A stretch of DNA of 64,000 nt from Ignavibacteria bacterium. Lineage in GTDB: Bacteria; Bacteroidota; Ignavibacteria; Kapaibacteriales; UBA4661. The stretch covers positions 1-64,000 of the forward strand of contig JACVZY010000118.1 in NCBI GenBank assembly GCA_014654705.1, read 5' to 3'. The notes below the pieces were generated by a model. That model was not told where the DNA came from and ran no database searches. It worked only from the letters and a program-made list of their open reading frames with translations. Shown here piece after piece: positions 1 through 27,444 of this stretch. A program made the translations under genes and the position numbers. The first letter of the stretch is position 1, and the number at the start of each line of letters is the position of its first letter.

Positions 1-3000
1 GGCGGTTCAGCGTGACGTTCCGCATGACGTTCGTGGCAATCTTCAACGCACCCGTAATACCTGCCGGTGTGCCACCACCCGTGCCGATTTCCAGGTCGCT
101 CTGTCCGTCGCTGATGAACGCGCCACGCAAGTCTAAGCGGCCTTGCAATATCACGTTCCGTCCGCGAATGTCTAACAACCCGCCCAGCACCAAGGCGCTC
201 GAAAGCGTCTTGTGGTCATCCAGCACCACCGTCACGTTCTCATCCACCACCACCGTGCCAGGCATCACGTTCGGGAATTCGATAGGCGAACTCGACCGCT
301 GCACATTCGTCCCCGAATACTGCAACACCGACAGCCCACTCTGATACAACGGCGCGTTCCCCGCAATCGAACCCGTACCCAGTAACCGCAATGTACCGCC
401 TGTGCTGGAATTGCCTTCGACGATGAGCGTCCCGAAGTTTGTGAGCGTCGTGCCGTCGGCAATCGTCAGCACCGACGGTGCTTGGATGCGCACCGTTACG
501 CCCGTGCCGATGACCATATTGTTCACCGTCGTTGCGATGGTGCTCCCGAAGACCGTGCTCCCCATCACGATGAACGTTGTGCCGGGGATGGTGAAGCTCG
601 GTGCGGGTGAACCATTTCCGTAAAAACTCCGCCACTGGGAAGGTAATGCCGCGTCGCCATTGGTGTAGTAAAATGCACCTGGAACAATCGTAACATTTAC
701 CGGAGCGCTGGCAGTAAAGCCGTGGGCATCGGTTACCTGCACGGTGTAGCTTTGCGGCGTTAGCCCTGTGAAAGTTGGAAATTGTATGCTTGTAGAGCTG
801 AGTTCTGGTGTTGCCGGAGTCCATGACCACGTAAAGGGCGATGTGCCACCGTTCAGTACCGGAGCGGTAAGAACAGTTGGCAGTCCGGCGACAGCAAAAC
901 TATTGCCCGTGAGCTGCGGACGATATCGCACAGAGACGGTTGCTTGACTTGTAGTAGTGCCGTCGCTGGCTTGATAGTTGAAATTGTCCACGGCACCAGA
1001 CGGAATAGCGATGAACGGCGTATAATTTACCGGATTGCCTGCGGCAGGAGCGACACTCCCGAACACTGGCGCCGGAACAGCAATTTGCGTTATTGTTGGC
1101 AAGCCCACAGCGACTGTCGCCGGAAGGGAAACGGTCGTCGGTACGGCAAAGGTGGGGTCGGCTATCATTGAGACCGGGGCAAGTGAAATCGTGCTAGTGG
1201 GCGCATTTACAAGTGTTGCGGTATTACCGTTACCCGATGCGTCAGCTGCCGACGTGCCGCCATACTCGTTGAAGCGCCAATAGCCAAGAAGGTTACTCCA
1301 GTTCGGGTGTGTGGTGCCGATTTCCAGTCCTTTGTAGGTGTTGATGGTTGTTTGCGGTAAAGCGGTGTTCCATAAGCGTACTTCGTCTATGTCACCTTGC
1401 CATGGCTCGCCCGAAACGGGTGCCCAGCCGATATGCACTTGTCCGCCTGTTGCTGGACCGACGCCGTAAGGTATGGAAGCACCTGCTTGGATGCCATTGA
1501 CGTACAGTGTTGCTGCACCGCCTGTGAGAGTAACTGCGATGTGATACCACTGGTTTTGCGCAAAGGGGTACGGGAAGAAAGCTAAGGAGCCGTTCCAAAT
1601 TGCCAAACCACTGTAATTGCTCATAATATGGAAACTATAGCGTGTATTGCCGATACCATCGCGGATAGCCATAATGCACGGATTTGCTGGTGGAGCTCCC
1701 GACACCCACGTCGGACGTATCCACGTTTCTAGTGTTCCAGCGCTAATGTCAAATGCTGGATTGGTCGCCGCTACATCTTGCGTTGTGCCGTTGAAGGTGA
1801 GCGCATTACCAAAGCCCGCACGCGTGGGCGAGTTCTGGTTCAAAAGGATGGCAACGTTATCGGGACCAAAATTCACTGCCGCAGCATCAATATCACCGTC
1901 GTTATCGAAATCGCCTGTCACAAGGGAGAAGGGTTGCCCGCCTAGCACATTATTCGTCGCCAGCGCAAAGACTCCACCGGTATTGCGCATCATACTGACA
2001 TTGCCGCCGTTCGCTACGGTGAGGTCGAGGTCGCCGTCGCCGTCGAAGTCACCCGGCATAACGGCTACTGTACCCGCGCCCACCGCATAATTCACCGCCG
2101 CAAATGTTCCCGGCGTAACGTTGCTGTTTACCAAAATGCTGATGTCATTGATGCCACCACCACCAGCGTTTGCCGTTGCAAGGTCGAGATTGCCGTCGCC
2201 ATTGAGATCAGCGGCTGTGATGAATTGAGGCTGTGTTCCTACGGGAAAATTCCCTGTCAATGCAAATGTGCCAAAGCCACTATTCATCAGAATACTGACG
2301 GTATTCGTCCCGTAATTTGCCGTCGCAAGGTCGAGGTCGCCATCGTTATCGAAGTCACCTGTGGTGATGAACTCAGGGTTTGAACCGCCGCTCAGAGCAT
2401 AGTTCACCGCCCCTGCAAACGCTCCTGCGCCTGTGTTCAGGAGAATGCTGATATTATTTCCGGTGAGATTCACTGTCGCTAGGTCGAGGTCACCATCCGC
2501 GTCGTAGTCGCCGACGGCAATGGCTTGGGGCAATGCTCCCACCACGAGGACAGGTCCCCATGCTGCAAATACTCCGGCTGTATTTCGTAGCAAACTGACA
2601 TTGTTGGCACCGTCTGCCACGGCAAGGTCGAGGTCGCCGTCGTTATCGAAGTCGCCCGGCATGACGCATTGGGGGTTTGCTCCCACAGTAACGGTACTTG
2701 CTGAGTATGTTCCCCCACCTGTGCTGATGAGGATTGTAACATTATTGGAACTGCCATTCGTCGCTGCGAAGTCGAGGGTACCGTTGCCATCGAAATCACC
2801 TGTTGCGATGGAACGTGGACCCGTAAGCATCGTAGGAATGGTAACTTGTTGAAAAGTGGCTGGTCCCATGCCCGCACGTGTGCGGAAGCCCATCACAAAC
2901 GGGCGCGTCGGCACATTCAGGCTACTTTGCGCGTGGGTAACGCTCACAAAGACCTGTTCGCCGCTTCGGAATGGTGTGCTTGGCGTAAGTGTGGCGTTTG

Positions 3001-6000
3001 CAACACCTGTGGTGTACGTACCAATAGTTCGCAAGCCTGTGAACCCGCCCCACACTTTGAAGGCTTGTGCGGAAGCCGTTGCTGCCGTTACGTTTTGCGT
3101 GAACGGCACAACAATCGTTGTTGCCACTGGAGCATTCATGAGGTTGAAGGTTGGCGTAACGGGTGGAATGCCGAAGGGGAAGGTGTTATTGACGACGTTT
3201 TGGTATGGTGCATTACGCAAGAAGGCAAACTGCGTTCCTGCTGTGGCGATAACGTCAAGATCGCCGTCGTTATCCACATCTCCCGCAACACCGAGACTTA
3301 CGTTTGCAGGGTTAGGTATGATGCGCTGCGGAGCGAACGCAAGCGTTCCGGCTGCAGTGTTGATATTTTGGCTGAAATATGGAATACTGCCGACAGAATT
3401 GAGAATGTCAATGAGTCCGTCGCCGTTAAAATCACCCATTGAGAGGATGAGAGGCGAATTTCCCGCAAACGACACACCCGTAAACGCTCCTGCCCCGTTG
3501 TTTTGATAGATTGTCATTCCGGCTGGATTTAGACCAGTCGGCAAAATATCTATATCACCGTCATTGTCGAAATCGGCGGTAAGAAGTACGCCGTAGAGCG
3601 TTGTGTAGGTCGTCGGAACGTTTGTTTGTGAGAATACACCTGCGCCGTTGTTAGCGAAGATGTGCAGACTCACGTTGGTATTGACGACAATATCCATATC
3701 CCCGTCGTTGTCAAAGTCATCGGTGCTGATACCTGCCGCATTAGGCGTACCAATTGCGTAGGGCGATGAAGGTGCTGCGGCGAAACCACCCAAACCATTC
3801 CCGAAATATACAAACAACTGCCCAGCGCCGTAGCCCGTCGCTGCAATATCAATATTCCCATCGCCGTTGAAATCCCCAACCGTAACGTCAAACACCGAGA
3901 ATGCAGGCAAAACAGGTCCCACATTCATCGTTGCACCAGCGTTGTTGATAAATACTTCAACCGTACCAGTCAGAATGTTGCCCACTGCCGCGTCCGGTCT
4001 GCCGTCGTTGTTGAAATCCGCTACTGCCAAGCCGCGCCCTTGCGGTGTTCCGCCCGAAAGTGTGGCGTTGTACCAAGGAGCAAAATTGCCAGCACCGTCG
4101 CCCGTGAAAATGCGGAATGAACTCATGGGCGGATTATCCGTACTCAAGGCAACATCAAGATTGGTGTCGTTATTGAAATAACCGACTTTTATGCCCCAGA
4201 CACTAGCTGGCGTTGGGGTAAGGGAAGTTTGGGTGAAGGTCGCTGGACCTGTACCTGCACGCCCCATGAAACTTGAGACGTGCGGCGTGGTCATAAAGCC
4301 CGCTGCGCTGGAAGTTCCCGTTGCTGTTATGGTCGTCATCACGCGCTCGCCCGGACGAGTATTCATGCCTGTTTGCGTGGCAGTATTCCCCGCAAAGGTC
4401 GGTGCGGTGAGGTTGCGTCCCGTAAAGCCGTTCCACGTGCGCATACCGAGCGCCGTCAGCGTTTGAGAGAAGGTTACGTTCACAGGACTGGTGAGCGGTG
4501 CAACGGCGGGATTATTCCTTGTGGGCGAGACTGCCGTTACCACCGGAGGTGCTGCTGCCGCACCGATGGCGTAAAATAATGTTCCGGGATTTAGTGGAGT
4601 GTACACCATGGTGTTCGAGATGTTTGGAGCAGCAACCGTACTCAAGGTGTTAGTGTTAATGCCTTGATATACACCACCTGCCGTTGCAGCCTCACCGATG
4701 CGGCTTGTGCCGATGAGCGCGGGTATAGTGCGGGTAAAGGTCAGCGTTGCATTGACCAGCGCAAAACCACCCAAGAATGTCCGCCAGTATTCCGTCGTGG
4801 AAAGCGTTCCTGTACCGATAACACCTGCTTCTGTGCCACCTGATGCAGCGAGGAACGGCTCTACTTCGTAACTAGCCGTACCGGCAGCCGAAGCGTAACT
4901 AACCTGAAGAGGAATGTAGGTCAAGGGAGTACCGCCCCCGACGGGAAAATCATATATACCGCCGACAGCGGCAAGCGATCGACGAAGCGGACCGGCAATA
5001 TGCGAGGTTGTGCCGCTGCCCGCAAAAACCGATGCAGGTGCGGTGTTCAATATCGAGAGGATATTGGTCGGTGTGGTTCTGATGTAGCCTTGTGTAAGAA
5101 AAAGCGAACCAGTGTTTGCAATATCCAGAGGGCTGCCTAGCGTCATCGTTGCTCCCGCACGGTTCATTGTGAGCGTACCAATGCCGCCCGCTCCAAATAG
5201 CGCATTGCCGTTGATGTTTCCACTGCCCGTAATCGTAAGCGCAGAGGTTGCGTTGCCGTTGATGGTTCCGGCGGCAAACGTTATCACGCCGTTTGGTTGG
5301 AGCGTCCGCCCTGAAATATCAAGCGAGCCTGACTGCATGGTGAACGTACCGTTGATTTGCCTGTTCGCATGAAGCGTTACGCCGCCGGTGTTGTTCATGG
5401 TTACCGAACCGGGCATGGCTGCGGGGAATTCGATAGCGCTCGTTGCACGGGCAGCCGCTCCCGAATACTCAAGCGTGGCGGTCGTTCCCCAGTAGGTAAC
5501 GGCATTGCCCGCAATGGCAGCTGTTCCGCCCAGACGCAGCGTCGCACCTGCTACGGTCGCACCCGATACGTTCAAAAAGCCATTGTTGGTAATCGTTACG
5601 CCACCGTTCAATGCCAGCACTGATGGTGTGGTGACGTGCAGCGACACATTTGCGCCAAGCGTGAAGGAGGTGTTCACGGTTGCTGTTGTAGATGCGCCGC
5701 CGCCCATGACGTAGAAGTCTGTATCAGGGCTATTGAAGGACGTTGCCGATGAGCCGCTACCGTTAGGCATGGAGTTCCAGCTTCCGGGCAAACCAGCATC
5801 GCCTGATTGATAGTAATACTTTGTGGGAGCAACTTGATTAAACAATACCGTTACATTGTTACTGCCATTATTTGCCGCTGCCAGGTCGAGGTCGCCGTCG
5901 CCGTCCACATCGCCAAAGGCGACTGAATTGGGTTGAGTGCCTGCTGCAAAGGGGGAGTTTGCCGCCGCCGCGAACGTCCCGGCACCATTATTGAGCAATA

Positions 6001-9000
6001 CTGTTAGATTGTTGCTACTTTGGTTCGCCGTTGCCAGGTCGAGGTCGCCGTCGCCGTCCACATCGCCAAAGGCAAGGAAAATTGGTTGTGTTCCTGCGGC
6101 AAAGGGCGAACCCGGGGAAGGCGAATATGAACCGGCACCATTATTCAGCAGTACCGTAACATCGTTACTGGTTTGATTCGTTGTTGCGATATCAAGGTCA
6201 CCGTCGCCGTCCAAGTCGCCGAAGGTTACCGAGCGCGGACTGGTGCCAACGGTAAACGGCGAGCCAGCTGCCGGAGTGTACAAACCCGTACCGTTATTCA
6301 GCAAGACCGCGACGTTGGTGCTACCGTTGTTCGCTACTGCAAAGTCGAGGTCGCCATCGCCGTCCACGTCGCCAAAATCTATGCCACTTGCACCCGTGCT
6401 GCCTAGGGCAATAGGCGAGCCAGGTGCCGGAGTGAATGTGCCGACACCGTTGTTTAGCAATAACGTAACGTCATTACTTCCGTTATTTGCTGTTGCAAGG
6501 TCGAGGTCACCGTCGCCGTCCACATCGCCCAATGCTACATACCACGGACTTGTACCAACCGTAAAGGGAGAGCCAATTGCTGAAGTAGTAAATGAACCTG
6601 AGCCATTGTTCAAAAGAACGACAACGCTAGCGAGACCAATCCGTGTAATGACGAGGTCCAGGTCGCCATCCCTATCTACATCGCCAAAGACAAGAGATCG
6701 GAGTGCTCCTCCCACTGCGAAAGGTGAACCTGCTATCGCGGTGTAGGAACCTGAGCCATTATTTGCTAACACCGTAACATTGGTGCCAGTTTGATTTGCA
6801 GTTGCGATGTCCAGGTCGCCATCGCCGTCCACATCGCCAAAAGCAGCGGAACGTGCTGCCGCTCCCGCTCCAAAAGGTGAGCCGAGCGCTGGAACGCTAA
6901 AGTTTGCGGGTCCCATGCCTGCCGCAACCCGATAATCGAACACAAACGGACGAGTGCGAATGCCAACGCTGTTGTTTGGCGCAGTAACACTGCTGGAAGC
7001 ATTGCTCACACTCACGCTGACAAGTTCGCCCGGACGGAAGTTTGCTGATGGCGTAAAAGTCATCGCGGTAGCACCGCCGGAATACGCGCCATTTGGTGAG
7101 AAGCCTTGCGACCGTGTGCGACTGCCCGTAAAGCTCCCATGCACTTGGAAAAGCTGCTGTGCCGGTGGGACGGAATAGGTGTTCGTGGTGATGTTCGTGG
7201 AGAAATTCACCGTAACAGGTGCGCCAACGCCTGCGATGTTGGGATTATTCATCGTTGTATTGCCGTTGCGGAAAGGTGCGATGCTGCTTACAAGCGGCTG
7301 TGTGCCGTTTTTGAGAATCGTAACATTCGCGGGCGTATCGGTAACGTAGATAATATCAAGGTCGCCGTCGCCGTCCATATCTCCAACCGTGCATGGAACG
7401 GCAGCAGCAGCAATATTTCCTGCTTCTCGTGCAAAAGGACTGCCCACAACGGGCGTAAAATTCGGACTTAATCCGCCGCCGTTCAAGAGAACGTGCGTCG
7501 GTGTGGAGCCGGCTTGCCCCAGCGCAACAATATCCAGTCTGCCGTTGCCGTCCACATCCGCAAGCAACGAGCGGGCATTTATTCCGACAGCGTACGGCGA
7601 CCCCGTTGAAGCTGTCCACGCTGTGCCACTTCCGTTATTGAGCCGCGCATGAACCGTTGCGCCGTCGCCAAAAACCGCATCAAGGAAGCCGTCGCCGTTA
7701 ATGTCGCCAAGAGCAATCATGGAATTGCTTGCGCCAATCGCAAAGGGCGAACCTGTTGCCGATGCAAAGCGTCCTACGCCGTTATTGAGCATGACAAAAA
7801 GCCGCGTGGCACTAACCATACAAACGTCAATATCGCCGTCATTATCGACATCGCCAACGGCAGTATTGGTCATTAACGTTGCTCCTGCGGCAAAGGGTGA
7901 GCCGGGCGCAGTTGTAAACGCGCCGCTTCCATTATTGAGCATCACGTGTAAAGAATTTGCCGCAAAATCTCCCGAAATAGCGTCGAGGTCGCCGTCGGCA
8001 TCCACGTCGGCAAGGCTCAAACTGCCTGTATTCGAGCCTCCCGCAAACGTGTACGATGCCGCCGCACCAAAACCGCCCGCACCGTTACCAACCCAGACCA
8101 CAAGAGCGCACGGAGCCACCGCATTCACCGCAACCGCATCAAGATTGCCGTCATTGTTCACATCGGCGAGTTTGATATTCCGAGCTTGCGCACCCGACCC
8201 CGCGCCCCAGCCAAACGCCGTAGAAAGGCTGAACACTCCCGTATTTACACCTGTTTGCAAATGCACCGCCAATCCTGCGGTATTGGTCGAAACAATGTCT
8301 AAATCGCCGTCGCCATCAAGGTCACCAACGTCCGTTGCCGAAAAGCTGTTATTATCCAGTTTGGGCAGCGTGTGCGCAGGGTAGAATGTTGCCGAACCAG
8401 CACCCGCAGCCGCACGGAAACCCATCACAAAGGGGCGCGTAAATGCGCCGCCCGTGCTTTGGGCATTGGTAACGCTCACCCAGACTTGTTCGCCCGGGTT
8501 GAAATTTGCCGTTGTGGTGAACGTCATTGTTGCACCAGCACCGGAGAAGCCTGTGCCGGAGCGGTAGCCTTGAGAAGTCGTGCCGTGAACTTTCATCACA
8601 TTCCGCGCTGTCGGGTCGGTAAAGGTAGCGGCTGTTGCATTTTGCGAGAAGGTTACGCTGATGCCCGTCGGAACAGTATTCATCGGCACTTTCATTGGCG
8701 AACCCGTGGGAGTGCCGTAGTTCATGGTGTTCATGAGTGGCGTAGTCGTAGGGCGCGGCGTGAAGGGTGGAAGATTGCCCAAGACGTTCATAGGCGCAAG
8801 TGGTGGAGCGTTCAGCAAAACCGTAAAATTGTTGCTGGCAAAATTCGCCGTTGCCACATCCAAGTCGCCGTCACCGTCCACATCCCCGAAAGCGACAGAA
8901 GACGGTTCTGTTAAGACAGAAAAGGGCGAGCCGACTGCATTGGTGTACCCCCCGGAGCCGTTGTTCAGCAGGATGCTGACATTATTACTGGCATCATTCG

Positions 9001-12000
9001 CCGTTGCCACATCCAGGTCGCCGTCGCCGTCCAAATCCCCGAAAGCGACAGAAAACGGTTCTGTTCCGACAGCAAAGGGCGAGCCGACTGCATTGGTGTA
9101 CCCCCCAGAGCCGTTGTTCAGCAGGACGCTGACATTGTTGCTGATTTGGTTCGCCGTTGCCATATCCAAGTCGCCGTCGCCGTCCAAATCCCCGAAAGCG
9201 ACAGAAAACGGTTCTGTTCCGGCAGCAAACGGTGAGCCGACTGCTGCCGTGTAACCCCCGGAGCCATTGTTCAGCAGGACGCTGACATTGTTGCTGCCAC
9301 GATTCGCCGTTGCCACATCCAAGTCGCCGTCACCGTCCACATCCCCAAAAGCGACAGAAAGCGGTAATGATCCGACAGCAAAGGGCGAGCCGACTGCTGC
9401 GGTGTAAGTCCCGGAGCCGTTGTTCAGCAGGATGCTGACGTTGTTGCTGTTAGCATTCGCCGTTGCCACATCCATGTCCCCGTCGCCGTCCACATCCCCG
9501 AAAGCGACAGAAAACGGGTTTGTTCCGACAGCAAAGGGCGAGCCGACTGCTGCGGTGTACCCCCCGGAGCCGTTGTTCAGTAGGACGCTGGCGTTGTTGC
9601 TGGCAAAATTCGCCGTTGCCACATCCAAGTCGCCGTCACCGTCCACATCCCCGAAAGCGACAGAACGCGGGCTTGTTCCCACAGCAAACGGCGAGCCGAC
9701 TGCAGGGGTGTAAATCCCGGAGCCATTGTTCAGTAGTACGCTGACATCGTTGCTGCCACGATTCGCCGTAGCCACATCCAAGTCGCCGTCACCGTCCACA
9801 TCCCCGAAAGCGACAGAAAGCGGGTTTGTTCCGACAGCAAACGGCGAGCCGGTAGTCTGCGTGCTGAAGTTTGCAGGTCCCGTTCCCGCTCTTGTGCGGA
9901 AGCCCATCACAAACGGACGAGTGAATGCGCCGCCTGTGCTTTGGGCATTGGTAACGCTCACCCACACTTGTTCGCCCGGATTGAAGTTTGCTGTGGTGGT
10001 GAACGTCATCGTCGCGCCTGCGCCGGAAAATCCTTGACCGGAACGATACCCGCGTGAGGTCGTGCCAAAGACTTTCATCACATTCCGCGCTGTCGGGTCG
10101 GTAAAGGTAGCGGCTGTTGCATTTTGCGAGAAGGTTACGCTGATGCCCGTTGGAACAGTATTCATCGGCACTTTCACAGGTGAACCCGACGGCGTACCGA
10201 CGTTCATGGTGTTCATGAGCGGCGTAGTGGTGGGGCGCGGCGTGAAGGGCGGGGTGTTGCCCAAGACGTTCATCGGGAGCGTGTTGAACAGTACCGATAC
10301 AGTTGCCCCGTTGCGATTGGGTGTAACAAGGTCTATATCGCCGTCGCCGTCCACATCACCGGAGGAAATGGCATACGGCAACGGACCGGTTGCATAATTG
10401 ATGGGAGCCGCAAAGATACCACCGGAATTCAGCAAAATGCCGACAGTTCCGGCTAATGTGGCGTTAGAGACGGCAATATCAAGGTCGCCGTCGCCGTCAA
10501 GATCATTGAGCGTAATGCCTTGCGGCTGCGTAAAACCTGTGGTGTAGTCGGTTCTGGCAAATGTTCCTGTGCCGGAATTGACAAAGACACTCACGCTATT
10601 CGCTCCTTGATTGGCAGAAACAAGGTCTATATCGCCGTCGCCATCAATATCTCCTGCGGTAAGTCCCCATGGATTTGCCGGAGCAGCATAATTCACCACC
10701 GCACCCAAGGTTCCCACGCCGTTATTCATCAACACACTGACATTGGGGTTAAGTTGATTTGCTTCTGCCACGTCAATATCTCCGTCGCCGTCGAGGTCGG
10801 CAGTGATAATAGTGTTCGGTCCGGTACTTGCGCCAATGAAATACCCCGTCGAAGCACCAAACACGCCCGCACCGTTATTGAGTCGTACCCCTATACTATT
10901 GAGGTTAGGAATTGCCAGAACAAGATCCATATCCCCATCGGCATCCATATCGGCAATGCCGATAGACGTTATGCCTGTGCCATGAGTGTAAAAGACCGCA
11001 GGAGCAAACGTGCCTGTGCCAAGATTTTGATTCAGGAAAACATAGATTCCGTTCAGATTGTTTCCGGCGACAATATCCAACGCACCATCATTATTGAGAT
11101 CGCCCACAGAAACAGACATGAGACCTGTTGCGGCTGTATAGGGTACATTTGCCGCATACGTGCCATTACCGTTGTTCAAATAGACACGGACATTGGTTGT
11201 ACCAAAATCAACGGAAACTATATCAAGGTCGCCATCGCCGTCGAGGTCACCAGTTGCAGCCGCGAAGGGTTGCGTTCCTGCGGCAAGAGTTGTTTGTGCG
11301 GGAAATTGCGCCGGACCTGAGCCTGCCCTCGTCCGGAAGCCCATCACAAAGGGGCGTGTACTTGCGCCTGCCGTGCTTTGCGCATTGGTAACGGTTACCC
11401 AGACTTGCTCACCAGGGTTGAAACTTGATGTAATAGAGGCTGTGGTGGTGAATTGGAGCGTTGCCCCCGACCCCGCAAAACCAACACCGGAGCGGTATCC
11501 ACGCGAGGTTGTGCCGTGAACTTTCATGGCATCGCGGGCTGTGGGCGAGGTTGTGCCATTGGAGAACACCCATGGAGCGAGGTTTTGTGAGAAGGTAATA
11601 TCAATTCCGTTCACACCTGCCGTATTCATCGGCACTTTCACGGGCGAACCTGTGGGCGTGCCGTAGTTCACAGTGTTCATAAGCGGTGTGGTGGTGGGGC
11701 GTGGCGTGAAGGGTGGGAGGTTGCCCAAGACGGTCATGGGTGGGGCATTGAGTAAAACAACCACCAAATTTCCTGTGTTCTTTGTCATGGCAATATCCAC
11801 ATCGCCATCGCCATCCACATCGCCAAGTTCCATACCCCAAGGAGCAGAGCCGCCTCCGGCAGCAAACGGTGAACCGCTTGCAATGGTCGTAAAATTCCCT
11901 GCGCCGTTATTGAGCCGCACGGTTACATTATTCGAGCCGTTATTTGCGACAACCATATCTAAATCGCCGTCGCCATCTATATCGCCCAAGCGCACCGGAA

Positions 12001-14365
12001 ACGGCGTTGTTCCGGTAGCATAATTGACGGCAGCAGCAAAGCCGCCTGCGGTATTGTTCAAAAAGACGTTTGCATTGTTACTCGTGCCACTTACGGTTAC
12101 CACGTCCATAAACCCGTCATTATTCAGGTCGGCAAAATTCACCGAGCGCGGACCTGTTCCCGTTGCATAGTTTGGCGTAGCAGGTGCATAGAATGTACCA
12201 AAGCCGCTATTCATAAAGACATCAATACGATTGCCTGTATTTGCCGAAACGACCATATCCAAATCGCCGTCGTTGTCAATATCGCCCATGCCGACTGCTC
12301 CCGGACCGCCGCCGGTGGTGTACGGAGTAGCAGCACCAAAGCCGCCACTGCCATTATTGAGGCGCGTGGTAACGGTATTTCCTGTGAAATTGGTGGTCAT
12401 CAAATCCAAATCGCCATCGGCATCAATATCAGCCAGCGCAAGCCCCGTCGGATCGCCGCCCGCAACAAGCGTTGTCGTACTGAAATTCCCCGAACCGTTA
12501 TTGAACATAATCGTAACGCCGGAGCCATCGTTGGCAACCGCTAAATCTATATCGCCGTCGTTATCTACATCGCCTGCAATAAGCAGGTAAGGGCTTGTGC
12601 CAGCAACAGGAGTAGGTGCGACGGGGTGCGGGGTATATGTTCCCGAACCGTTATTAACAAGAATTGAAGCAGTGTTAGCGGTATAATTTGCCGTCGCCAT
12701 ATCCAAATCGCCATCGCCGTCGAAGTCGGCGAGTGCCATTCCTTGCGGGCTGTTGCCTGTGGCAAAAGGTGAACCCGTGGGCTGAGAGGTGAAATTCACT
12801 GGACCTGTTCCCGCTGCCGTGCGGAAGCCCATCACGAAGGGGCGTGTGGGTGCAAAGCCCGTTGATTGGGCATTGGTAACGGTTACCCAGACTTGTTCGC
12901 CCGGGTTGAAACTTGTGGTAACGGAGGCTGTTGTTGTGAAACTCAGCGTCGCTCCCGAACCGCCAAAGCCAGTGCCAGAGCGGTAACCGCGCGAAGTCGT
13001 CCCGAACACTTTCATTGCATCCCGCGCATTCGGCGAAGTTGTGCCGTTGGAAAAGACCCACGGAGCGAGACTTTGCGAAAAGGTAACGTCAATGCTATTC
13101 ACACCAGCCGTATTCATCGGCACTTTCACGGGCGACCCAGTGGGCGTGCCGTAGTTCATGGTGTTCATGAGCGGCGAGGTTGTGGGGCGCGGCGTGAAGG
13201 GGGGGAGATTGCCTGCAACATTGAGAGTCGGCGGTCCAAAGGCAGCAAATCTCTGTCGCGAAGAACCACCGATAGTGGAGAATCCGCCGCCAACGAAGAC
13301 ATTCGACCCACTGACAGCAATAGATGGTACACCTGCATCCGCATTGGGGTTCCATGCGGTTGCGTTTAAGGTGTTCACCGTTGCATCTAAAGCACCAATA
13401 TTATTTCGTGCTGCGCTACCACAATTCGTAAATGTGCCACTGACATACACCGTTGTTCCCGTGATAGCAATGCTTTCAACACTTCCAATAGCGCTTGGAT
13501 TCCATAGTGTGGCATTGTTTGTATTGACTAAGGTGTTGAGTGCCGCAATACGATTACGCACCTGACCGCCAATGTTTGTGAAATTCCCCCCGACATACAG
13601 CGTCGTTCCACTCAATGCCATTGATAAAACAGTATTGTTGGCATTGGGATTCCACAAGGTGGCACTCCCCGTAGCGGCATCCAATGCTGCAATGCGATTA
13701 CGTGCTTGTCCACCAATATTCGCAAATACGCCGCCTACATATATCGTGCCACCGCTTATGACAATCCGTGTTACGTCCGCATCCGCATTGGGATTCCATG
13801 CAGTAGCCAAACCTGTTCCGGCATCAATGGCAGCAATGTTATTTCGTGATTGTCCGCCAATGTTGCTAAAGGCTCCGCCGACATACACTGTTGTTCCGCT
13901 CACAGCGATTGCATTAATTGCCGTCGCCCCTGAGCCTGGGTTCCATGCCGTTGCAGCTCCTGTAACAGCATCCAAAGCGGCAATTTGATTCCGCATCTGT
14001 CCGCCAACATTTGTAAATCCTCCACCGACATAAACAGTGGAGCCATCCACCGTAAGCACGCCAACGTTATTATTGGCATTAGGATTCCATGGAAGCAATG
14101 CTCCTGTGGTCATATCAATCGCAGCAAGCCGATTTCGCGTTACCGTAACTCCCCCATTTGCAGGAGCATCCGTTGCTTGCGTAAAGCTCCCGCCAACGTA
14201 GATTGTTGTACCAGAAATGCCTATGGCAGAAACGGTACCGTTAAACGTCGGGAAGGTTGTCAGTGGGGTACTGCTTTGGGCATGAGCACTAAATTGTGGC
14301 AAAAACAGAGATACAAAAAACGTCAAAAAAATGACGGCATAGTAACGGGTACTGGAGAGGTTCAT
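1..14365 (-). CDS. Giant secreted FG-GAP multi-propeller surface protein (C-terminus beyond window)
   Basis: The frame starting at ATG 14365 stays open to the left edge, at least 4,788 codons. Residues 1-30 are a Sec signal peptide ending in AHAQ. Residues about 31-380 hold seven blades of the type YVGGxFxNIGGQxRNxIAALD. Then Ig-like modules (each with RPFVMGFR or a variant) alternate with seven FG-GAP/VCBS arrays at nucleotides about 12810-11745, 11315-10295, 9880-8805, 8390-7295, 6920-5835, 4250-3200 and 2860-1830. Each array has exactly seven Asp-rich DxDGDGDxD loops, the integrin-type calcium-binding pattern, so each should fold as one seven-bladed propeller. A LamG domain lies at about 1825-1260, followed by Ig/PKD-like sequence. 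A beta-rich module at 5830-5000 recurs at 690-1. The likely role is a cell-surface or secreted adhesin; a T9SS signal would be expected beyond the window. No clear Shine-Dalgarno precedes the ATG. Domain content is well supported, function is inferred. Confidence 0.9.
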   Translation of the reverse strand, partial: MNLSSTRYYAVIFLTFFVSLFLPQFSAHAQSSTPLTTFPTFNGTVSAIGISGTTIYVGGSFTQATDAPANGGVTVTRNRLAAIDMTTGALLPWNPNANNNVGVLTVDGSTVYVGGGFTNVGGQMRNQIAALDAVTGAATAWNPGSGATAINAIAVSGTTVYVGGAFSNIGGQSRNNIAAIDAGTGLATAWNPNADADVTRIVISGGTIYVGGVFANIGGQARNRIAALDAATGSATLWNPNANNTVLSMALSGTTLYVGGNFTNIGGQVRNRIAALNTLVNTNNATLWNPSAIGSVESIAITGTTVYVSGTFTNCGSAARNNIGALDATVNTLNATAWNPNADAGVPSIAVSGSNVFVGGGFSTIGGSSRQRFAAFGPPTLNVAGNLPPFTPRPTTSPLMNTMNYGTPTGSPVKVPMNTAGVNSIDVTFSQSLAPWVFSNGTTSPNARDAMKVFGTTSRGYRSGTGFGGSGATLSFTTTASVTTSFNPGEQVWVTVTNAQSTGFAPTRPFVMGFRTAAGTGPVNFTSQPTGSPFATGNSPQGMALADFDGDGDLDMATANYTANTASILVNNGSGTYTPHPVAPTPVAGTSPYLLIAGDVDNDGDIDLAVANDGSGVTIMFNNGSGNFSTTTLVAGGDPTGLALADIDADGDLDLMTTNFTGNTVTTRLNNGSGGFGAATPYTTGGGPGAVGMGDIDNDGDLDMVVSANTGNRIDVFMNSGFGTFYAPATPNYATGTGPRSVNFADLNNDGFMDVVTVSGTSNNANVFLNNTAGGFAAAVNYATGTTPFPVRLGDIDGDGDLDMVVANNGSNNVTVRLNNGAGNFTTIASGSPFAAGGGSAPWGMELGDVDGDGDVDIAMTKNTGNLVVVLLNAPPMTVLGNLPPFTPRPTTTPLMNTVNYGTPTGSPVKVPMNTAGVNGIDITFSQNLAPWVFSNGTTSPTARDAMKVHGTTSRGYRSGVGFAGSGATLQFTTTASITSSFNPGEQVWVTVTNAQSTAGASTRPFVMGFRTRAGSGPAQFPAQTTLAAGTQPFAAATGDLDGDGDLDIVSVDFGTTNVRVYLNNGNGTYAANVPYTAATGLMSVSVGDLNNDGALDIVAGNNLNGIYVFLNQNLGTGTFAPAVFYTHGTGITSIGIADMDADGDMDLVLAIPNLNSIGVRLNNGAGVFGASTGYFIGASTGPNTIITADLDGDGDIDVAEANQLNPNVSVLMNNGVGTLGAVVNYAAPANPWGLTAGDIDGDGDIDLVSANQGANSVSVFVNSGTGTFARTDYTTGFTQPQGITLNDLDGDGDLDIAVSNATLAGTVGILLNSGGIFAAPINYATGPLPYAISSGDVDGDGDIDLVTPNRNGATVSVLFNTLPMNVLGNTPPFTPRPTTTPLMNTMNVGTPSGSPVKVPMNTVPTGISVTFSQNATAATFTDPTARNVMKVFGTTSRGYRSGQGFSGAGATMTFTTTANFNPGEQVWVSVTNAQSTGGAFTRPFVMGFRTRAGTGPANFSTQTTGSPFAVGTNPLSVAFGDVDGDGDLDVATANRGSNDVSVLLNNGSGIYTPAVGSPFAVGTSPRSVAFGDVDGDGDLDVATANFASNNASVLLNNGSGGYTAAVGSPFAVGTNPFSVAFGDVDGDGDMDVATANANSNNVSILLNNGSGTYTAAVGSPFAVGSLPLSVAFGDVDGDGDLDVATANRGSNNVSVLLNNGSGGYTAAVGSPFAAGTEPFSVAFGDLDGDGDLDMATANQISNNVSVLLNNGSGGYTNAVGSPFAVGTEPFSVAFGDLDGDGDLDVATANDASNNVSILLNNGSGGYTNAVGSPFSVLTEPSSVAFGDVDGDGDLDVATANFASNNFTVLLNAPPLAPMNVLGNLPPFTPRPTTTPLMNTMNYGTPTGSPMKVPMNTVPTGISVTFSQNATAATFTDPTARNVMKVHGTTSQGYRSGTGFSGAGATMTFTTTANFNPGEQVWVSVTNAQSTGGAFTRPFVMGFRAAAGAGSATFYPAHTLPKLDNNSFSATDVGDLDGDGDLDIVSTNTAGLAVHLQTGVNTGVFSLSTAFGWGAGSGAQARNIKLADVNNDGNLDAVAVNAVAPCALVVWVGNGAGGFGAAASYTFAGGSNTGSLSLADVDADGDLDAISGDFAANSLHVMLNNGSGAFTTAPGSPFAAGATLMTNTAVGDVDNDGDIDVCMVSATRLFVMLNNGVGRFASATGSPFAIGASNSMIALGDINGDGFLDAVFGDGATVHARLNNGSGTAWTASTGSPYAVGINARSLLADVDGNGRLDIVALGQAGSTPTHVLLNGGGLSPNFTPVVGSPFAREAGNIAAAAVPCTVGDMDGDGDLDIIYVTDTPANVTILKNGTQPLVSSIAPFRNGNTTMNNPNIAGVGAPVTVNFSTNITTNTYSVPPAQQLFQVHGSFTGSRTRSQGFSPNGAYSGGATAMTFTPSANFRPGELVSVSVSNASSSVTAPNNSVGIRTRPFVFDYRVAAGMGPANFSVPALGSPFGAGAAARSAAFGDVDGDGDLDIATANQTGTNVTVLANNGSGSYTAIAGSPFAVGGALRSLVFGDVDRDGDLDLVITRIGLASVVVLLNNGSGSFTTSAIGSPFTVGTSPWYVALGDVDGDGDLDLATANNGSNDVTLLLNNGVGTFTPAPGSPIALGSTGASGIDFGDVDGDGDLDFAVANNGSTNVAVLLNNGTGLYTPAAGSPFTVGTSPRSVTFGDLDGDGDLDIATTNQTSNDVTVLLNNGAGSYSPSPGSPFAAGTQPIFLAFGDVDGDGDLDLATANQSSNNLTVLLNNGAGTFAAAANSPFAAGTQPNSVAFGDVDGDGDLDLAAANNGSNNVTVLFNQVAPTKYYYQSGDAGLPGSWNSMPNGSGSSATSFNSPDTDFYVMGGGASTTATVNTSFTLGANVSLHVTTPSVLALNGGVTITNNGFLNVSGATVAGATLRLGGTAAIAGNAVTYWGTTATLEYSGAAARATSAIEFPAAMPGSVTMNNTGGVTLHANRQINGTFTMQSGSLDISGRTLQPNGVITFAAGTINGNATSALTITGSGNINGNALFGAGGIGTLTMNRAGATMTLGSPLDIANTGSLFLTQGYIRTTPTNILSILNTAPASVFAGSGTTSHIAGPLRRSLAAVGGIYDFPVGGGTPLTYIPLQVSYASAAGTASYEVEPFLAASGGTEAGVIGTGTLSTTEYWRTFLGGFALVNATLTFTRTIPALIGTSRIGEAATAGGVYQGINTNTLSTVAAPNISNTMVYTPLNPGTLFYAIGAAAAPPVVTAVSPTRNNPAVAPLTSPVNVTFSQTLTALGMRTWNGFTGRNLTAPTFAGNTATQTGMNTRPGERVMTTITATGTSSAAGFMTTPHVSSFMGRAGTGPATFTQTSLTPTPASVWGIKVGYFNNDTNLDVALSTDNPPMSSFRIFTGDGAGNFAPWYNATLSGGTPQGRGLAVADFNNDGRPDAAVGNILTGTVEVFINNAGATMNVGPVLPAFSVFDVTVGDFNGDGNIDIAATGYGAGQLFVYFGNGLGGFAAAPSSPYAIGTPNAAGISTDDFDNDGDMDIVVNTNVSLHIFANNGAGVFSQTNVPTTYTTLYGVLLTADFDNDGDIDILPTGLNPAGMTIYQNNGAGAFTGVSFAGNSPLILSMGDFNGDGLIDILNSVGSIPYFSQNINTAAGTLAFAPQRIIPNPANVSLGVAGDVDNDGDLDVIATAGTQFAFLRNAPYQNVVNNTFPFGIPPVTPTFNLMNAPVATTIVVPFTQNVTAATASAQAFKVWGGFTGLRTIGTYTTGVANATLTPSTPFRSGEQVFVSVTHAQSSLNVPTRPFVMGFRTRAGMGPATFQQVTIPTMLTGPRSIATGDFDGNGTLDFAATNGSSNNVTILISTGGGTYSASTVTVGANPQCVMPGDFDNDGDLDLAVADGANNVSLLRNTAGVFAAWGPVLVVGALPQAIAVGDYDADGDLDLATVNLTGNNISILLNTGAGAFAGAVNYALSGGSNPEFITTGDFDNDGDLDLATANYGTNTVSILMNSGFGTFALTGNFPVGTQPQFITAADLNGDGNLDLATANAGGGGINDISILVNSNVTPGTFAAVNYAVGAGTVAVMPGDFDGDGDLDLTVANGGNVSMMRNTGGVFALATNNVLGGQPFSLVTGDFDNDGDIDAAAVNFGPDNVAILLNQNSPTRAGFGNALTFNGTTQDVAATNPAFDISAGTLETWIRPTWVSGAPPANPCIMAIRDGIGNTRYSFHIMSNYSGLAIWNGSLAFFPYPFAQNQWYHIAVTLTGGAATLYVNGIQAGASIPYGVGPATGGQVHIGWAPVSGEPWQGDIDEVRLWNTALPQTTINTYKGLEIGTTHPNWSNLLGYWRFNEYGGTSAADASGNGNTATLVNAPTSTISLAPVSMIADPTFAVPTTVSLPATVAVGLPTITQIAVPAPVFGSVAPAAGNPVNYTPFIAIPSGAVDNFNYQASDGTTTSQATVSVRYRPQLTGNSFAVAGLPTVLTAPVLNGGTSPFTWSWTPATPELSSTSIQFPTFTGLTPQSYTVQVTDAHGFTASAPVNVTIVPGAFYYTNGDAALPSQWRSFYGNGSPAPSFTIPGTTFIVMGSTVFGSTIATTVNNMVIGTGVTVRIQAPSVLTIADGTTLTNFGTLIVEGNSSTGGTLRLLGTGSIAGNAPLYQSGLSVLQYSGTNVQRSSSPIEFPNVMPGTVVVDENVTVVLDDHKTLSSALVLGGLLDIRGRNVILQGRLDLRGAFISDGQSDLEIGTGGGTPAGITGALKIATNVMRNVTLNR

Positions 14366-14514
14366 AGTGTACCGGAAAATATTGACGAGGGATAAAATTG
14401 GGAGAGAGAACAAATTATGTAACAGCAAGGGACGTCAAATCTTCAACACAAGTCTTTATGCTGCAAAAGGAAGCACAAATATACACAAAAAGAGCCTGTC
14501 TCTAGTGCCTAAAA

Positions 14515-22527: not shown

Positions 22528-24933
22528 ATGAAGATAAGTTCTGTTCTCGTACTTACTTTTTTAATCGTGTTTACCTTTCCGTGCTCGGTCTTGGCACAGA
22601 AAAAGTCCAGTGCCAAGTCTGCGTTGAATAATACCGTGCAAGCGCTCCCGCTATCGCCACAAGAGCAAGCCATCACCAACCTTCGTGCTTTCGCGAGGTT
22701 GTATGGCTATGTACGCTATTTCCATCCCAGCGACGAGGCGACTCAACTAGATTGGGATAAATTCGCTATCTACGGAGCAGGCAAAGTGAAAAACGCTCGT
22801 ACCACCGACGAACTCGCTTTTACGCTCGAAGAGCTTTTCCTACCCATTGCTCCAACGCTACAAATTTTACGCCCGAATGAGAAACCTCGACCCGTTGGTA
22901 TTCCCGAACATTCCGGCACAGTACAATCTGTGGCGTGGCAACACAAAGGACTGGGGGTCGGAGTGTATAAGCTCTATGGCGATGATTCACCGTACCGCAG
23001 TATGCGCCTTAATCGGAAAAACGTGGTAAATGAAGAGAAGCCAAAACACAGCATAGCAAGTGTGGGAACAAGCATTGGGCATCCTTTTATGACCTTCACG
23101 AACAATCCGGTTCTACCATTACGTGGCAAAGAGATTAAATTCACAGCAGCTGTGCGGGTGAGCGAGGTTAATTCACCAGACGGTGGGCACTTATTGCTGC
23201 AGGTACATACTAATAATGGTGATGCTGGATTCTTTGACAATATGAGAAATCATCCCATCCGGTCGTCAGAATGGAGTACATATACCATAGTTGGTCGCGT
23301 AGATACGAGCGCTGTAGCCATTCATTGCGGTTGCTTTTTGAGTGGAAAAGGCAAACTCTGGATAGATGATATGCGTCTTTTCACCCGTGCCAATGCGACC
23401 GAAGCCTGGAAACCTGTTCCCATACCCAATCCGGGTTTCGAGAAATTCGTGACACTGAGCAATGGTCGGCAGACCTATAAGGGTGCCAATGGCAGTGGAG
23501 GTTATTCGATTACACCGAGCAAAGACAATCCATTTGAGGGAAATTATTGTGCTTTCATTCAGTGCCTATCTCCCCAAGAGCGTACCGTCGTCAACAAAGA
23601 ACTATTTGCTGCAAAGCCAAAAGACGGCGAGACCATTACCAAAGACCTTGCCGGCGGTTTGCGGTGCGTCCTACCGATTGCTTTGTATGCGAATAATACC
23701 AACACACTTGGCTCCACACCAAAAAGTATGGCAGCATTTGAGAATTTACAAAAGATTCTGTCCAAGGATATCCAAGGCAAAGCGGAGCAACTGGAGCAAG
23801 AACCTACTCGCCTCGCCAATGTTGTCGTCGCATGGAATGTTTTCCAGCACTTCTATCCATACTTTGATAAGGTAAAAACCAATTGGGATTCTGTTCTCAC
23901 CGTCACTCTTGCTGAAGCATTCAGAAACACATCCGCATACTTTTTTGTCAAAGTCATGCGGAACATGGTAGCCGCACTGCGCGACGGACACGCTTGGTAT
24001 CATTATATGCCGAACGGCTTTGCCCTAAACGTAAAAGTGGAAAATATTGAAGGACAACCCGTTATTATTGCCTCGCAGGATTCGCTCTTGAAACGTGGCG
24101 ATGTGATAGTAAAGGTGGACGGCTACGACACCAGAGTACGCCTTGCTGAAGAGGAGGGACTCACATCCGGCACACCCCAATGGAAACGAGCGGAAGCGGT
24201 GGATAATATTATTCATTCGATGATAAAAGAACTGCCCCTGACTATCAACCGCAATGGGGAGCTGATGGACATTACAGCCAAATGTAAGCCATTAGACAAG
24301 AGAAGTGTTTTCGAGCATCCCGCTCTTGAGCAAATAGGAGGCGCACAGCTCACCGATAAGGTGTGGTATATTGATTTGGCACAGGTTTCCGTTGCCGAGA
24401 TTGAAGCAAAAGCGAATGAATTTGCTCAAGCAAAAGGAATTGTGTTCGATATGCGAGGTTATCCCAAAGACGGGAACGCGGAAATATTAGGCTATTTGAC
24501 GGATTCGCCGCTGCTATCACCTCGCTACCTCGTACCGCAAATCATCTACCCCGACCGTGAGAACGTGCAGGGTTACGACACAAACGGACGCTGGCATGTT
24601 CAACCCACACTGCCCCGATGGAAAGGAAAAATCGTATTTTTGACGGGCGGCGGTGCAATCTCACAAGCAGAAGATATTATGAGCATCGTGGAGCATTACA
24701 AACTCGGTGAAATTGTGGGCGAAACAACAGCCGGAGCCGATGGGAATGTGAATATACTCAGACTTCCGGGTGGGTCAAGTATTCGCTGGACAGGAATGGA
24801 AGTGCTGAAGCATGACGGTTCGCAGCATCATCTTGTCGGCATCAAGCCAACTGTTCCCGCTGTGCGGACGGTGCAGGGTGTCCGCGCCGGGCGCGATGAG
24901 GTCTTGGAAAAGGCGTTGTCGCTGATGCCGTAA
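22528..24933 (+). CDS. Secreted S41-type (C-terminal-processing-like) peptidase, paralogue A
   Basis: An 801-residue exported protein. The signal peptide ends at VLAQ (about residue 24). A helical region with LYGYVRYFHPSDEA (about 55-70) is typical of Bacteroidota S41 relatives. Residues about 130-310 form a beta-sandwich that looks like a carbohydrate-binding jelly roll (WIDDMRLF at its end). A PDZ-like region with SLLKRGDVIVKVDGY follows at about 510-540. The C-terminal S41 core has FLTGGGAISQAED (near residue 705), with the Ser in the nucleophile position, and GETTAGADGN, close to where family members carry catalytic or oxyanion residues. It should act in the periplasm or outside the cell on protein tails. 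It is a tandem duplicate of the next gene, 96 nt downstream. Confidence 0.88.
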   Translation: MKISSVLVLTFLIVFTFPCSVLAQKKSSAKSALNNTVQALPLSPQEQAITNLRAFARLYGYVRYFHPSDEATQLDWDKFAIYGAGKVKNARTTDELAFTLEELFLPIAPTLQILRPNEKPRPVGIPEHSGTVQSVAWQHKGLGVGVYKLYGDDSPYRSMRLNRKNVVNEEKPKHSIASVGTSIGHPFMTFTNNPVLPLRGKEIKFTAAVRVSEVNSPDGGHLLLQVHTNNGDAGFFDNMRNHPIRSSEWSTYTIVGRVDTSAVAIHCGCFLSGKGKLWIDDMRLFTRANATEAWKPVPIPNPGFEKFVTLSNGRQTYKGANGSGGYSITPSKDNPFEGNYCAFIQCLSPQERTVVNKELFAAKPKDGETITKDLAGGLRCVLPIALYANNTNTLGSTPKSMAAFENLQKILSKDIQGKAEQLEQEPTRLANVVVAWNVFQHFYPYFDKVKTNWDSVLTVTLAEAFRNTSAYFFVKVMRNMVAALRDGHAWYHYMPNGFALNVKVENIEGQPVIIASQDSLLKRGDVIVKVDGYDTRVRLAEEEGLTSGTPQWKRAEAVDNIIHSMIKELPLTINRNGELMDITAKCKPLDKRSVFEHPALEQIGGAQLTDKVWYIDLAQVSVAEIEAKANEFAQAKGIVFDMRGYPKDGNAEILGYLTDSPLLSPRYLVPQIIYPDRENVQGYDTNGRWHVQPTLPRWKGKIVFLTGGGAISQAEDIMSIVEHYKLGEIVGETTAGADGNVNILRLPGGSSIRWTGMEVLKHDGSQHHLVGIKPTVPAVRTVQGVRAGRDEVLEKALSLMP

Positions 24934-25029: not shown

Positions 25030-27444
25030 ATGAAGATACGTTCTGTCCTTGTCCTTACTGGTTTAATTGTACTCACTTTTCCGTGGTCTGTCTGTGCACA
25101 GAAGAAACAGCGTGTTGTCAAGCCTGCGTCGAATAACAGTGTGCAAAAGCCTTCGCTTCCGTCACAAAATCAAATTTTTACTAATCTTCGTGCTTTCACG
25201 AAACTATATGGCTATGTACGTTATTTCCATCCCAGCGATGAAGCTATACAAATTCCATGGGATAAATTTGCTGTCTATGGTACAGCTAAAGTCAAAAATG
25301 CTCGAAATACAGGCGAGTTAAAAACCATTCTGGAAAAACTCTTTTTACCGATTGCTCCAACACTACAAATTTTACAGTCAGGGAAGAAACCCGAAGCAGT
25401 TGCTCAGGCTACCAATAACACTTCATTCAAACCTGTGGCGTGGCAACATAAGGGTGTTGGCGTTGGTGTGTTCAATCTTTATGGTATCAATACTCCATAC
25501 CGAAGTGTACGCCTGAATCGGAATGGTGCTGAATATGCTAAGTCAGGTAAGCAAATACAAAGTATTCTTTCATATTACATCCGTTCCTCCAACTCTACTT
25601 TAGAAGCCCTAGGAGATAAATATGTTAAACTATCGGTTGCTTTGCGAACAGACCTGAAAGATGATGACGGTGGAATACTTCTTTATTTTGAAGCAACGAG
25701 TGTGGGTGGTAAAAAAAGGGCAAGAGGTACTTCTATTGATCAACCTATTGTTTCGCCAGCGTGGTCGGATTTTAGTTTACTAATTACTACACGGCAACTA
25801 TTACCCGAAAATATTCAGATAGCCATACTACCGATAGGAAGAGGAAAATTTTGGGTGGATAATGTACGGCTTTGGTTCTCAGACAATGAATATAGAGGAC
25901 CATGGAAACCATTTCATCTTGATAATCATAGTTTTGAAATTGTTGAGAAGGATAACCTTGGCAATGATGTGTTTCCGGCTTGGGAGTGTAGTCTTAACAA
26001 GGCTCATATTATGACGGCAAGTTCTGAAGAGAGATATCATGGCAAACGTAGCCTCCATATCGAAGATGTCGGAACTCGTGAATCTAGCTTCAGACAAGGA
26101 ATATTTACAGCAAAACCAAATAATGATGAATTGCTCATTAAGGAACTCGGAGGAGGCTTGCAATGTGCCTTGCCGCTCGTATTATTCACCGACGGAAAAA
26201 AGACCCTTGGGTCAACTACAACAAGTACTCTTGCGCTATCTGCATTGTTTCAAGATTCCTTGAATGCAATACAATTTGCAAAACGATCTATGGAGCAGGA
26301 ATCAGTTAGGCTTGCAAATGTCATTATGGCGTGGAATGTCCTACAACATTTTTATCCGTATTTTGATGTAGGAGAAACAAATTGGGATTCTACTCTTACT
26401 GTAGCTCTCCAAGCTACACTTCGGTGTACGTCCACAAAAGATTTTGGAACTATTATGCGGAAAATGCTGGCTGGTCTGCACGATGGTCATGCAGAGTTCT
26501 ATAGTTTCGAGACAAATCGAATCGTGCCAGCAACTATTGAAAACGTTGAAGGAAAACCCGTTGTGATGACTTCTGCAGATTCTCTTTTGAAACGAGGCGA
26601 CGTGCTGCTGACTGTTGACGGCAAACAAGCATGGGCATTACTGAAGGAAGAGGAAAATCTTGTTTCCGGCAGTCCACAGTACAAACGTTACCAAGCCGCA
26701 CAGAATCTCACGCGTTCCGAATCGAAAAGAGCATATCTCGCCGTGCAGCGAGGAGAAGATACTATATCAATAGCACTTGATCGCAAGCCTGCGAGAGAAG
26801 TTGCGTTATTTGAACATCCTGCCATCAAGCAAATAAGCGGCTCACAGAATAAGGATACAACGCGAGGTGCTGTGTGGTATATTGATCTAGCGCAGGTTTC
26901 TGTCGCTGAGATTGAAGCAAAAGCAAACGAATTTGCTCAGGCAAAAGGTATTGTGCTAGATATGCGAGGTTATCCCCAAAACGGGAATGCGGAAATATTA
27001 GGCTACTTGACGGATTCAGCGCTATTATCACCTCGCTACCTCATACCGCAAATTATCTACCCCGACCACGAGAACGTGCAGGACTACGACACAAGTGGAC
27101 GCTGGCGTGTGCCGCCAAAACTGCCCCGATGGAAAGGAAAAATTGTATTTTTGACGGGGGGCGGTGCAATCTCACAGGCAGAAGATATTATGAGCATCGT
27201 GGAGCATTACAAATTGGGCGAAATTGTCGGCGAAACAACAGCCGGAGCCGATGGGAATGTGAATATACTGAATCTCCCAAGTGGGAGTAGAATACGCTGG
27301 ACGGGTATGAAAGTCCTCAAGCACGACGGCTCGCAGCATCACCTTGTCGGTATCAAGCCAACTATTCCTGCTGTGCGGACGGTGCAGGGTGTCCGCGCCG
27401 GGCGCGATGAAGTCTTGGAAAAGGCGTTGTCTCTGATACCGTAA
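25030..27444 (+). CDS. Secreted S41-type (C-terminal-processing-like) peptidase, paralogue B
   Basis: An 804-residue paralogue of the preceding gene with the same order: signal peptide ending at VCAQ, YGYVRYFHPSDEA helix, a beta-sandwich domain (about 150-330), a PDZ-like SLLKRGDVLLTVDG segment, and an S41 core with FLTGGGAISQAED and GETTAGADGN. The middle sandwich has diverged strongly from paralogue A, while the last 190 codons are nearly the same at DNA level, as are the leader and the bases just before the ATG (both genes begin atgaagat after a T-rich run). This suggests a tandem duplication with later gene conversion in the catalytic half. No clear terminator follows; 227 nt separate it from the DUF2268 gene. 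Confidence 0.88.
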   Translation: MKIRSVLVLTGLIVLTFPWSVCAQKKQRVVKPASNNSVQKPSLPSQNQIFTNLRAFTKLYGYVRYFHPSDEAIQIPWDKFAVYGTAKVKNARNTGELKTILEKLFLPIAPTLQILQSGKKPEAVAQATNNTSFKPVAWQHKGVGVGVFNLYGINTPYRSVRLNRNGAEYAKSGKQIQSILSYYIRSSNSTLEALGDKYVKLSVALRTDLKDDDGGILLYFEATSVGGKKRARGTSIDQPIVSPAWSDFSLLITTRQLLPENIQIAILPIGRGKFWVDNVRLWFSDNEYRGPWKPFHLDNHSFEIVEKDNLGNDVFPAWECSLNKAHIMTASSEERYHGKRSLHIEDVGTRESSFRQGIFTAKPNNDELLIKELGGGLQCALPLVLFTDGKKTLGSTTTSTLALSALFQDSLNAIQFAKRSMEQESVRLANVIMAWNVLQHFYPYFDVGETNWDSTLTVALQATLRCTSTKDFGTIMRKMLAGLHDGHAEFYSFETNRIVPATIENVEGKPVVMTSADSLLKRGDVLLTVDGKQAWALLKEEENLVSGSPQYKRYQAAQNLTRSESKRAYLAVQRGEDTISIALDRKPAREVALFEHPAIKQISGSQNKDTTRGAVWYIDLAQVSVAEIEAKANEFAQAKGIVLDMRGYPQNGNAEILGYLTDSALLSPRYLIPQIIYPDHENVQDYDTSGRWRVPPKLPRWKGKIVFLTGGGAISQAEDIMSIVEHYKLGEIVGETTAGADGNVNILNLPSGSRIRWTGMKVLKHDGSQHHLVGIKPTIPAVRTVQGVRAGRDEVLEKALSLIP

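Follow-up and report, generated by a model that had tools for sequence, protein, structure and literature searches.

Proteins with VCBS propellers have already been published with signal sequences, several propellers, and Ig-like and lectin-like domains (PMC8023676), and propellers of this type are known in catalytic proteins too, such as the RGL11 lyases and AUDH (PMC8023676, PMC9218822). Among highly repetitive VCBS propellers, a survey gives a median of six blades, with forms comprising 3, 4, 6 and 9 blades (PMC9218822); counts vary there, whereas the chain described here shows seven blades throughout. A literature search on giant FG-GAP, T9SS or Kapabacteria proteins found nothing relevant.

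In this work we analysed a 64-kb window at the very start of contig C118, from a 5.7-Mb genome in 118 contigs, and the giant protein encoded at its start. We estimate at roughly 80% the probability that this protein is exported by the T9SS and serves, at the cell surface or after release, as a modular binding protein composed of module-swapped, closed seven-bladed rings. Its bearer would be a bacterium of the Bacteroidota, of the Ignavibacteria/Kapaibacteria kind, judging from the closest named relatives, which are Ignavibacteria and Candidatus Kapaibacterium MAGs.

The open reading frame spans window positions 2-14428 (-) and is opened by a TTG at 14428, while translation likely starts at the ATG at 14365, directly followed by a signal-peptide-like sequence. 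Counted from this ATG the protein is no shorter than 4788 residues; the full open frame translates into 4809 aa. No stop codon closes the frame before window base 1, where the contig itself begins; the 3' end of the gene and the C-terminus of the protein are therefore absent. The contig carrying this C-terminus was not located in the genome, the matches to the cut-off solenoid-like module sitting in other ORFs. Contig ends cut many giant genes (C118, C58, and several contigs of relatives, L008, L009, L017 and L019), so that the numbers of arrays per protein are lower bounds. By comparison with its complete paralogue C43, the window protein may be more than 6000 residues long. A previous sequence-only reading of this DNA omitted the truncation by the contig, the Laminin_G_3 domain and the two long non-propeller modules. 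As to the neighbouring genes, none within the 64-kb window points to an operon function. A second propeller/Ig protein of 1400 aa is encoded at 46484-50686 (-) and combines Ig-like domains of the He_PIG type with DUF5122 repeats (E 3.7e-67), and two adjoining S41-family peptidases of ~800 aa each, at 22528-24933 and 25030-27444 (+), are likely a tandem duplication. The domains of the giant protein are listed in Table 1.

Table 1 Domain map of the giant protein, from N- to C-terminal, in window coordinates.
Feature	Position	Strand	Basis and remarks
Predicted signal peptide, 30 aa, MNLSSTRYYAVIFLTFFVSLFLPQFSAHAQ	14276..14365	-	By inspection
YVGG/DUF5122-type array, N-terminal, seven repeats, probable propeller	13226..14275	-	Motifs, DUF5122 homology, closing-strand pattern
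Ig-like linker 1	12809..13225	-	
FG-GAP array 1, seven blades	11750..12808	-	Loop count and blade HMM
Ig-like linker 2	11330..11749	-	
FG-GAP array 2, seven blades	10286..11329	-	Loops, blade HMM, AF2 model and integrin match
Ig-like linker 3	9884..10285	-	No Pfam match of its own; paralogous linkers match Big_5
FG-GAP array 3, seven near-uniform 51-aa blades	8804..9883	-	Loops, blade identity, AF2 model and structure match
Ig-like linker 4	8405..8803	-	85% DNA identity to linker 3
FG-GAP array 4, seven blades	7307..8404	-	Loop count and blade HMM
Ig-like linker 5	6917..7306	-	79% DNA identity to one G006 linker
FG-GAP array 5, seven blades	5828..6916	-	Loop count and blade HMM
Non-propeller module, probable beta-solenoid, without Pfam match	4565..5827	-	59% identical copy in paralogue C43
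Ig-like linker 6	4262..4564	-	
FG-GAP array 6, seven blades, first loop degenerate (YFNNDTNLD)	3206..4261	-	Loop count and blade HMM
Ig-like linker 7	2879..3205	-	
FG-GAP array 7, seven blades	1835..2878	-	Loop count and blade HMM
Laminin_G_3 (concanavalin A-like) domain	1343..1792	-	Pfam E 5.1e-23
Second probable beta-solenoid module copy, cut by contig start	23..619	-	40% identity to first

The Ig-like linkers between the FG-GAP arrays are mostly ~110-140 aa long. The Big_5 profile (PF13205) gave no match with window linker 3, while it scores above the gathering score in linkers of the paralogues C43, C58, C27 and C81. The solenoid-like module of ~420 aa, present in two copies in the window, recurs many times in the same genome (C43, C83, C29, C81 and C3). 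It is probably a beta-solenoid of no recognised family.

The sequence-only reading had counted seven FG-GAP arrays with seven calcium-loop motifs each, and the loop count bears this out: 49 loops of the DxDxDGxxD type are spaced by 46-59 aa in seven clusters of seven, the clusters being 161-577 aa apart. Each FG-GAP blade carries its DxDxDG loop, one of which is degenerate (array 6, blade 1), and the Pfam profile FG-GAP_3 (PF13517) recognises 40 stretches (E 1.9e-281, 909.6 bits vs a cut-off of 26.9). A blade HMM, built from the 49 window blades and then iterated, found seven blades in 30/30 complete arrays of the same genome. In related genomes it did so for 59/60 arrays; one related-genome array scores 8 blades under a broader HMM. 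Applied to a sample of 162 arrays from other phyla, the blade HMM returned 118 sevens, 19 fourteens and one 21, the arrays of fourteen blades being taken as two tandem rings. The strict seven is real and not a product of chance, but it is the family norm and is not special to the window gene.

Ring closure was examined from motifs and models. Each FG-GAP array of the window has, before blade 1, a GxGPxxF-type strand similar to the NGxGxF strand found between blades, and no such strand comes after blade 7. Over a larger set, an NGxGxF-type motif occurs after blade 7 in 1/89 arrays vs 332/534 internal junctions. Owing to its variant sequence, the first strand fitted the strict motif in no more than 10/89 arrays, and the argument for a closing strand on the N-terminal side thus depends on inspection of the window arrays. 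Two of the seven FG-GAP arrays, arrays 2 and 3, were modelled with AF2 from 28 aligned sequences, and the model displays two ring-shaped propellers. Its mean pLDDT is 86.4 and its pTM 0.61, the propeller blocks lying mostly at 85-97 and the linker blocks at 48-83. The first ring (model residues 7-354) matches integrin alpha heads such as alphaIIb (3nid) with a Z-score of 35.2 and 2.5 A over 324 residues, and the second (486-843) matches seven-bladed WD40 chains such as CIAO1 (6tbl) with a Z-score of 34.8 and 2.5 A over 308 residues. Sequence profiles match CRTAC1 (3.4e-22) and integrin alpha too. An overlay of the linker on the integrin thigh gave 9-12 A rmsd and was rejected as evidence. For the FG-GAP arrays, closed seven-bladed FG-GAP/VCBS propellers of four-stranded blades are supported by prediction in arrays 2 and 3, and by count and closing strand in the others. 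Models and homology support, for each of them, an integrin-alpha-like ring, predicted to bind calcium and closed by a strand on the N-terminal side.

The N-terminal YVGG array had also been credited with seven blades, and seven YVGG-type motifs are indeed found at aa 77-378. The array matches DUF5122 (PF17164) with 44.7 bits against a gathering score of 27, shows the same closing-strand pattern as the FG-GAP arrays, and counts seven repeats in two related genomes as well. Among solved structures, a profile made from seven YVGG homologues picked out no relative, and viral contigs scanned for such relatives held none either. The single-sequence AF2 model (pLDDT 51) is open and resembles no propeller; made without an alignment, it is uninformative on closure. 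Judging from the DUF5122 homology and the N-terminal closing strand, the YVGG array is likely a closed seven-bladed propeller. The idea that the arrays are folded domains and not loose repeats thus stands for the FG-GAP arrays, on counts, closing strand and AF2 model, and is likely for the YVGG array.

At least four other giants are encoded in the genome: C43 (7595 aa), C81 (4831 aa), C27 (3809 aa) and C58 (at least 3320 aa). These lengths are those of stop-to-stop frames, and, the paralogues having been taken from fetched regions, the number of giants is a lower bound. TIGR04183 scores above cut-off at the end of all three complete paralogues, and the Pfam profile does so for two. The genome holds at least 149 PF18962 matches above cut-off, and encodes T9SS machinery, namely SprA (794 bits), PorU (805 bits) and PorV (265 bits). 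The genes of the PorU sortase and PorV are adjacent (G000:C27:47140-51723), on the same contig as the giant paralogue C27. In the complete paralogue C43, the LamG domain is followed by leucine-rich repeats, Ig-like domains and a sorting tail. We infer that the missing C-terminus of the window protein ends in a T9SS sorting tail, as the complete paralogues do.

Comparison of orthologues and arrays indicates how such proteins may change. Identity between L005 and its orthologue L015 is 75-97% over most of their length, but one linker+propeller module of ~490 aa is present only in L005; in this region (L005 2110-2760 aa), the two flanking linkers are ~80% identical in DNA. Whole linker+propeller modules are thus gained or lost between orthologues, and propellers rather than single blades are the units that are gained, lost and swapped. 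When arrays are compared, blades resemble each other more at matching than at non-matching positions, even without the end blades, and blade position identity in same-protein comparisons lies 8 to 19 SD above shuffled blade order. Because blades keep their position identity across arrays, a complete ring of seven blades was probably the ancestor of most arrays. Mean blade identity across arrays ranges from 0.25 to 0.80. Array 3, where it reaches 80% and all seven blades are nearest each other, has undergone recent homogenisation or re-amplification, yet it still has seven blades. Array-by-array re-amplification was rejected as a general rule, only window array 3 having all seven blades mutually nearest.

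The YVGG propeller of the window, at the N-terminus, is ~77% identical to its G005 and G006 counterparts, with 72% DNA identity over window positions 13226-14281, and the similarity begins at 14281, near the end of the signal peptide. Identity to G005 and G006 falls to only 27-43% in the FG-GAP arrays that follow, and the DNA upstream in the window is unrelated to theirs, which G005 and G006 share. Other nucleotide similarity comes as short patches mostly at linkers, plus a stretch at 5532-5914, in or near the 5' portion of the solenoid-like module. The N-terminal propeller is thus carried as a cassette on different stalks; among relatives, the N-terminal domains are SBBP, DUF5122, NHL, DUF7948+SBBP, or none recognised.

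Other explanations have to be weighed against these data. The high uniformity of array 3 and the open, solenoid-like YVGG model could suggest flexible or open repeats, either solenoids or calcium-bound strings, in which seven would be an accident of recent duplication. However, seven blades are kept in all but one of the arrays of the same and related genomes over the whole range of blade identity, and both the closing-strand pattern and the two confidently modelled rings speak against open repeats, a reading already largely refuted for the FG-GAP arrays and which we find scarcely credible. The sequence-only reading had further proposed a long rod on the cell surface. The surface part of this proposal is upheld indirectly, by the T9SS tails of the paralogues and the presence of SprA, PorU and PorV, and the rod part is not. 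Many consecutive domains joined by Ig-like linkers would fit a long rigid rod of propellers, and comparable multi-domain stalks occur in other surface proteins. Nevertheless, a rod is quite unlikely: the placement of neighbouring propellers is predicted with low confidence (as seen in the pTM and the linker blocks), and since velcro closure would put both termini, entry and exit, at one blade, each ring would hang beside the chain and add little length.

The protein could also act not in adhesion but as an extracellular enzyme, or as a scaffold released into the medium. The propellers of RGL11 lyases and AUDH cited above give this some ground, as do the LamG-like folds of glucanases, but a Pfam search over the 4809 aa matched no catalytic domain, and what paralogue C43 adds, leucine-rich repeats and Ig-like domains, are again binding modules. 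We hold such an enzyme or scaffold to be unlikely.

In the modular binding protein that we favour, the giant chain would be exported by the T9SS after its signal-peptide-like start and probably be retained at the cell surface, or else released. It would more likely resemble beads on a string than a rod, and would display the exchangeable N-terminal propeller together with numerous sites of low affinity, directed at glycans or other surfaces; we infer this role in adhesion or recognition from family precedent. Propellers would be copied, deleted and exchanged one whole module at a time, between similar linkers, and blade number would stay constant at seven because whole rings move in this way, closure being inherited and not recounted. 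More tentatively, and with some doubt, we propose that the giants constitute a diversifying family of surface receptors, with an exchangeable N-terminal tip (YVGG, DUF5122, SBBP or NHL) on related stalks, the length of which could change by whole linker+propeller steps through recombination between similar Ig-like linkers, leaving closure unbroken.

With ~90 arrays of one order and outgroups, whose blades go from near-identical to highly diverged while their number is constant at seven, this data set bears on the origin of new propellers, by blade amplification or by whole-ring duplication. Beyond this, it puts on record T9SS surface proteins that are large and evolve fast, from a lineage of Bacteroidota that has been little studied.

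The window protein shares features with several known systems. As in T9SS cargo with a type A sorting domain (TIGR04183/PF18962), this domain stands at the ends of the complete paralogues and SprA, PorU and PorV are encoded, whereas the end of the window gene is missing. As in the VCBS core supercluster (Pereira and Lupas 2021, PMC8023676; PF13517), a signal sequence and several FG-GAP_3 propellers with DxDxDG loops are found with Ig-like and jelly-roll lectin-like companions; unlike there, one chain carries at least seven FG-GAP propellers and an N-terminal DUF5122-type array, with a fixed blade count. CRTAC1 (9etn), the best solved relative by sequence (E 3.4e-22), has FG-GAP/VCBS blades too, but is a much shorter animal protein whose remaining architecture is unrelated. 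Finally, the integrin alpha head (alphaIIb, 3nid) also combines a seven-bladed FG-GAP propeller and calcium loops with a following Ig-like domain; identity is 18%, and the window protein differs by its many propellers per chain and its bacterial T9SS context, so that it is likened to integrin alpha as a fold relative only and is not classed as an integrin.
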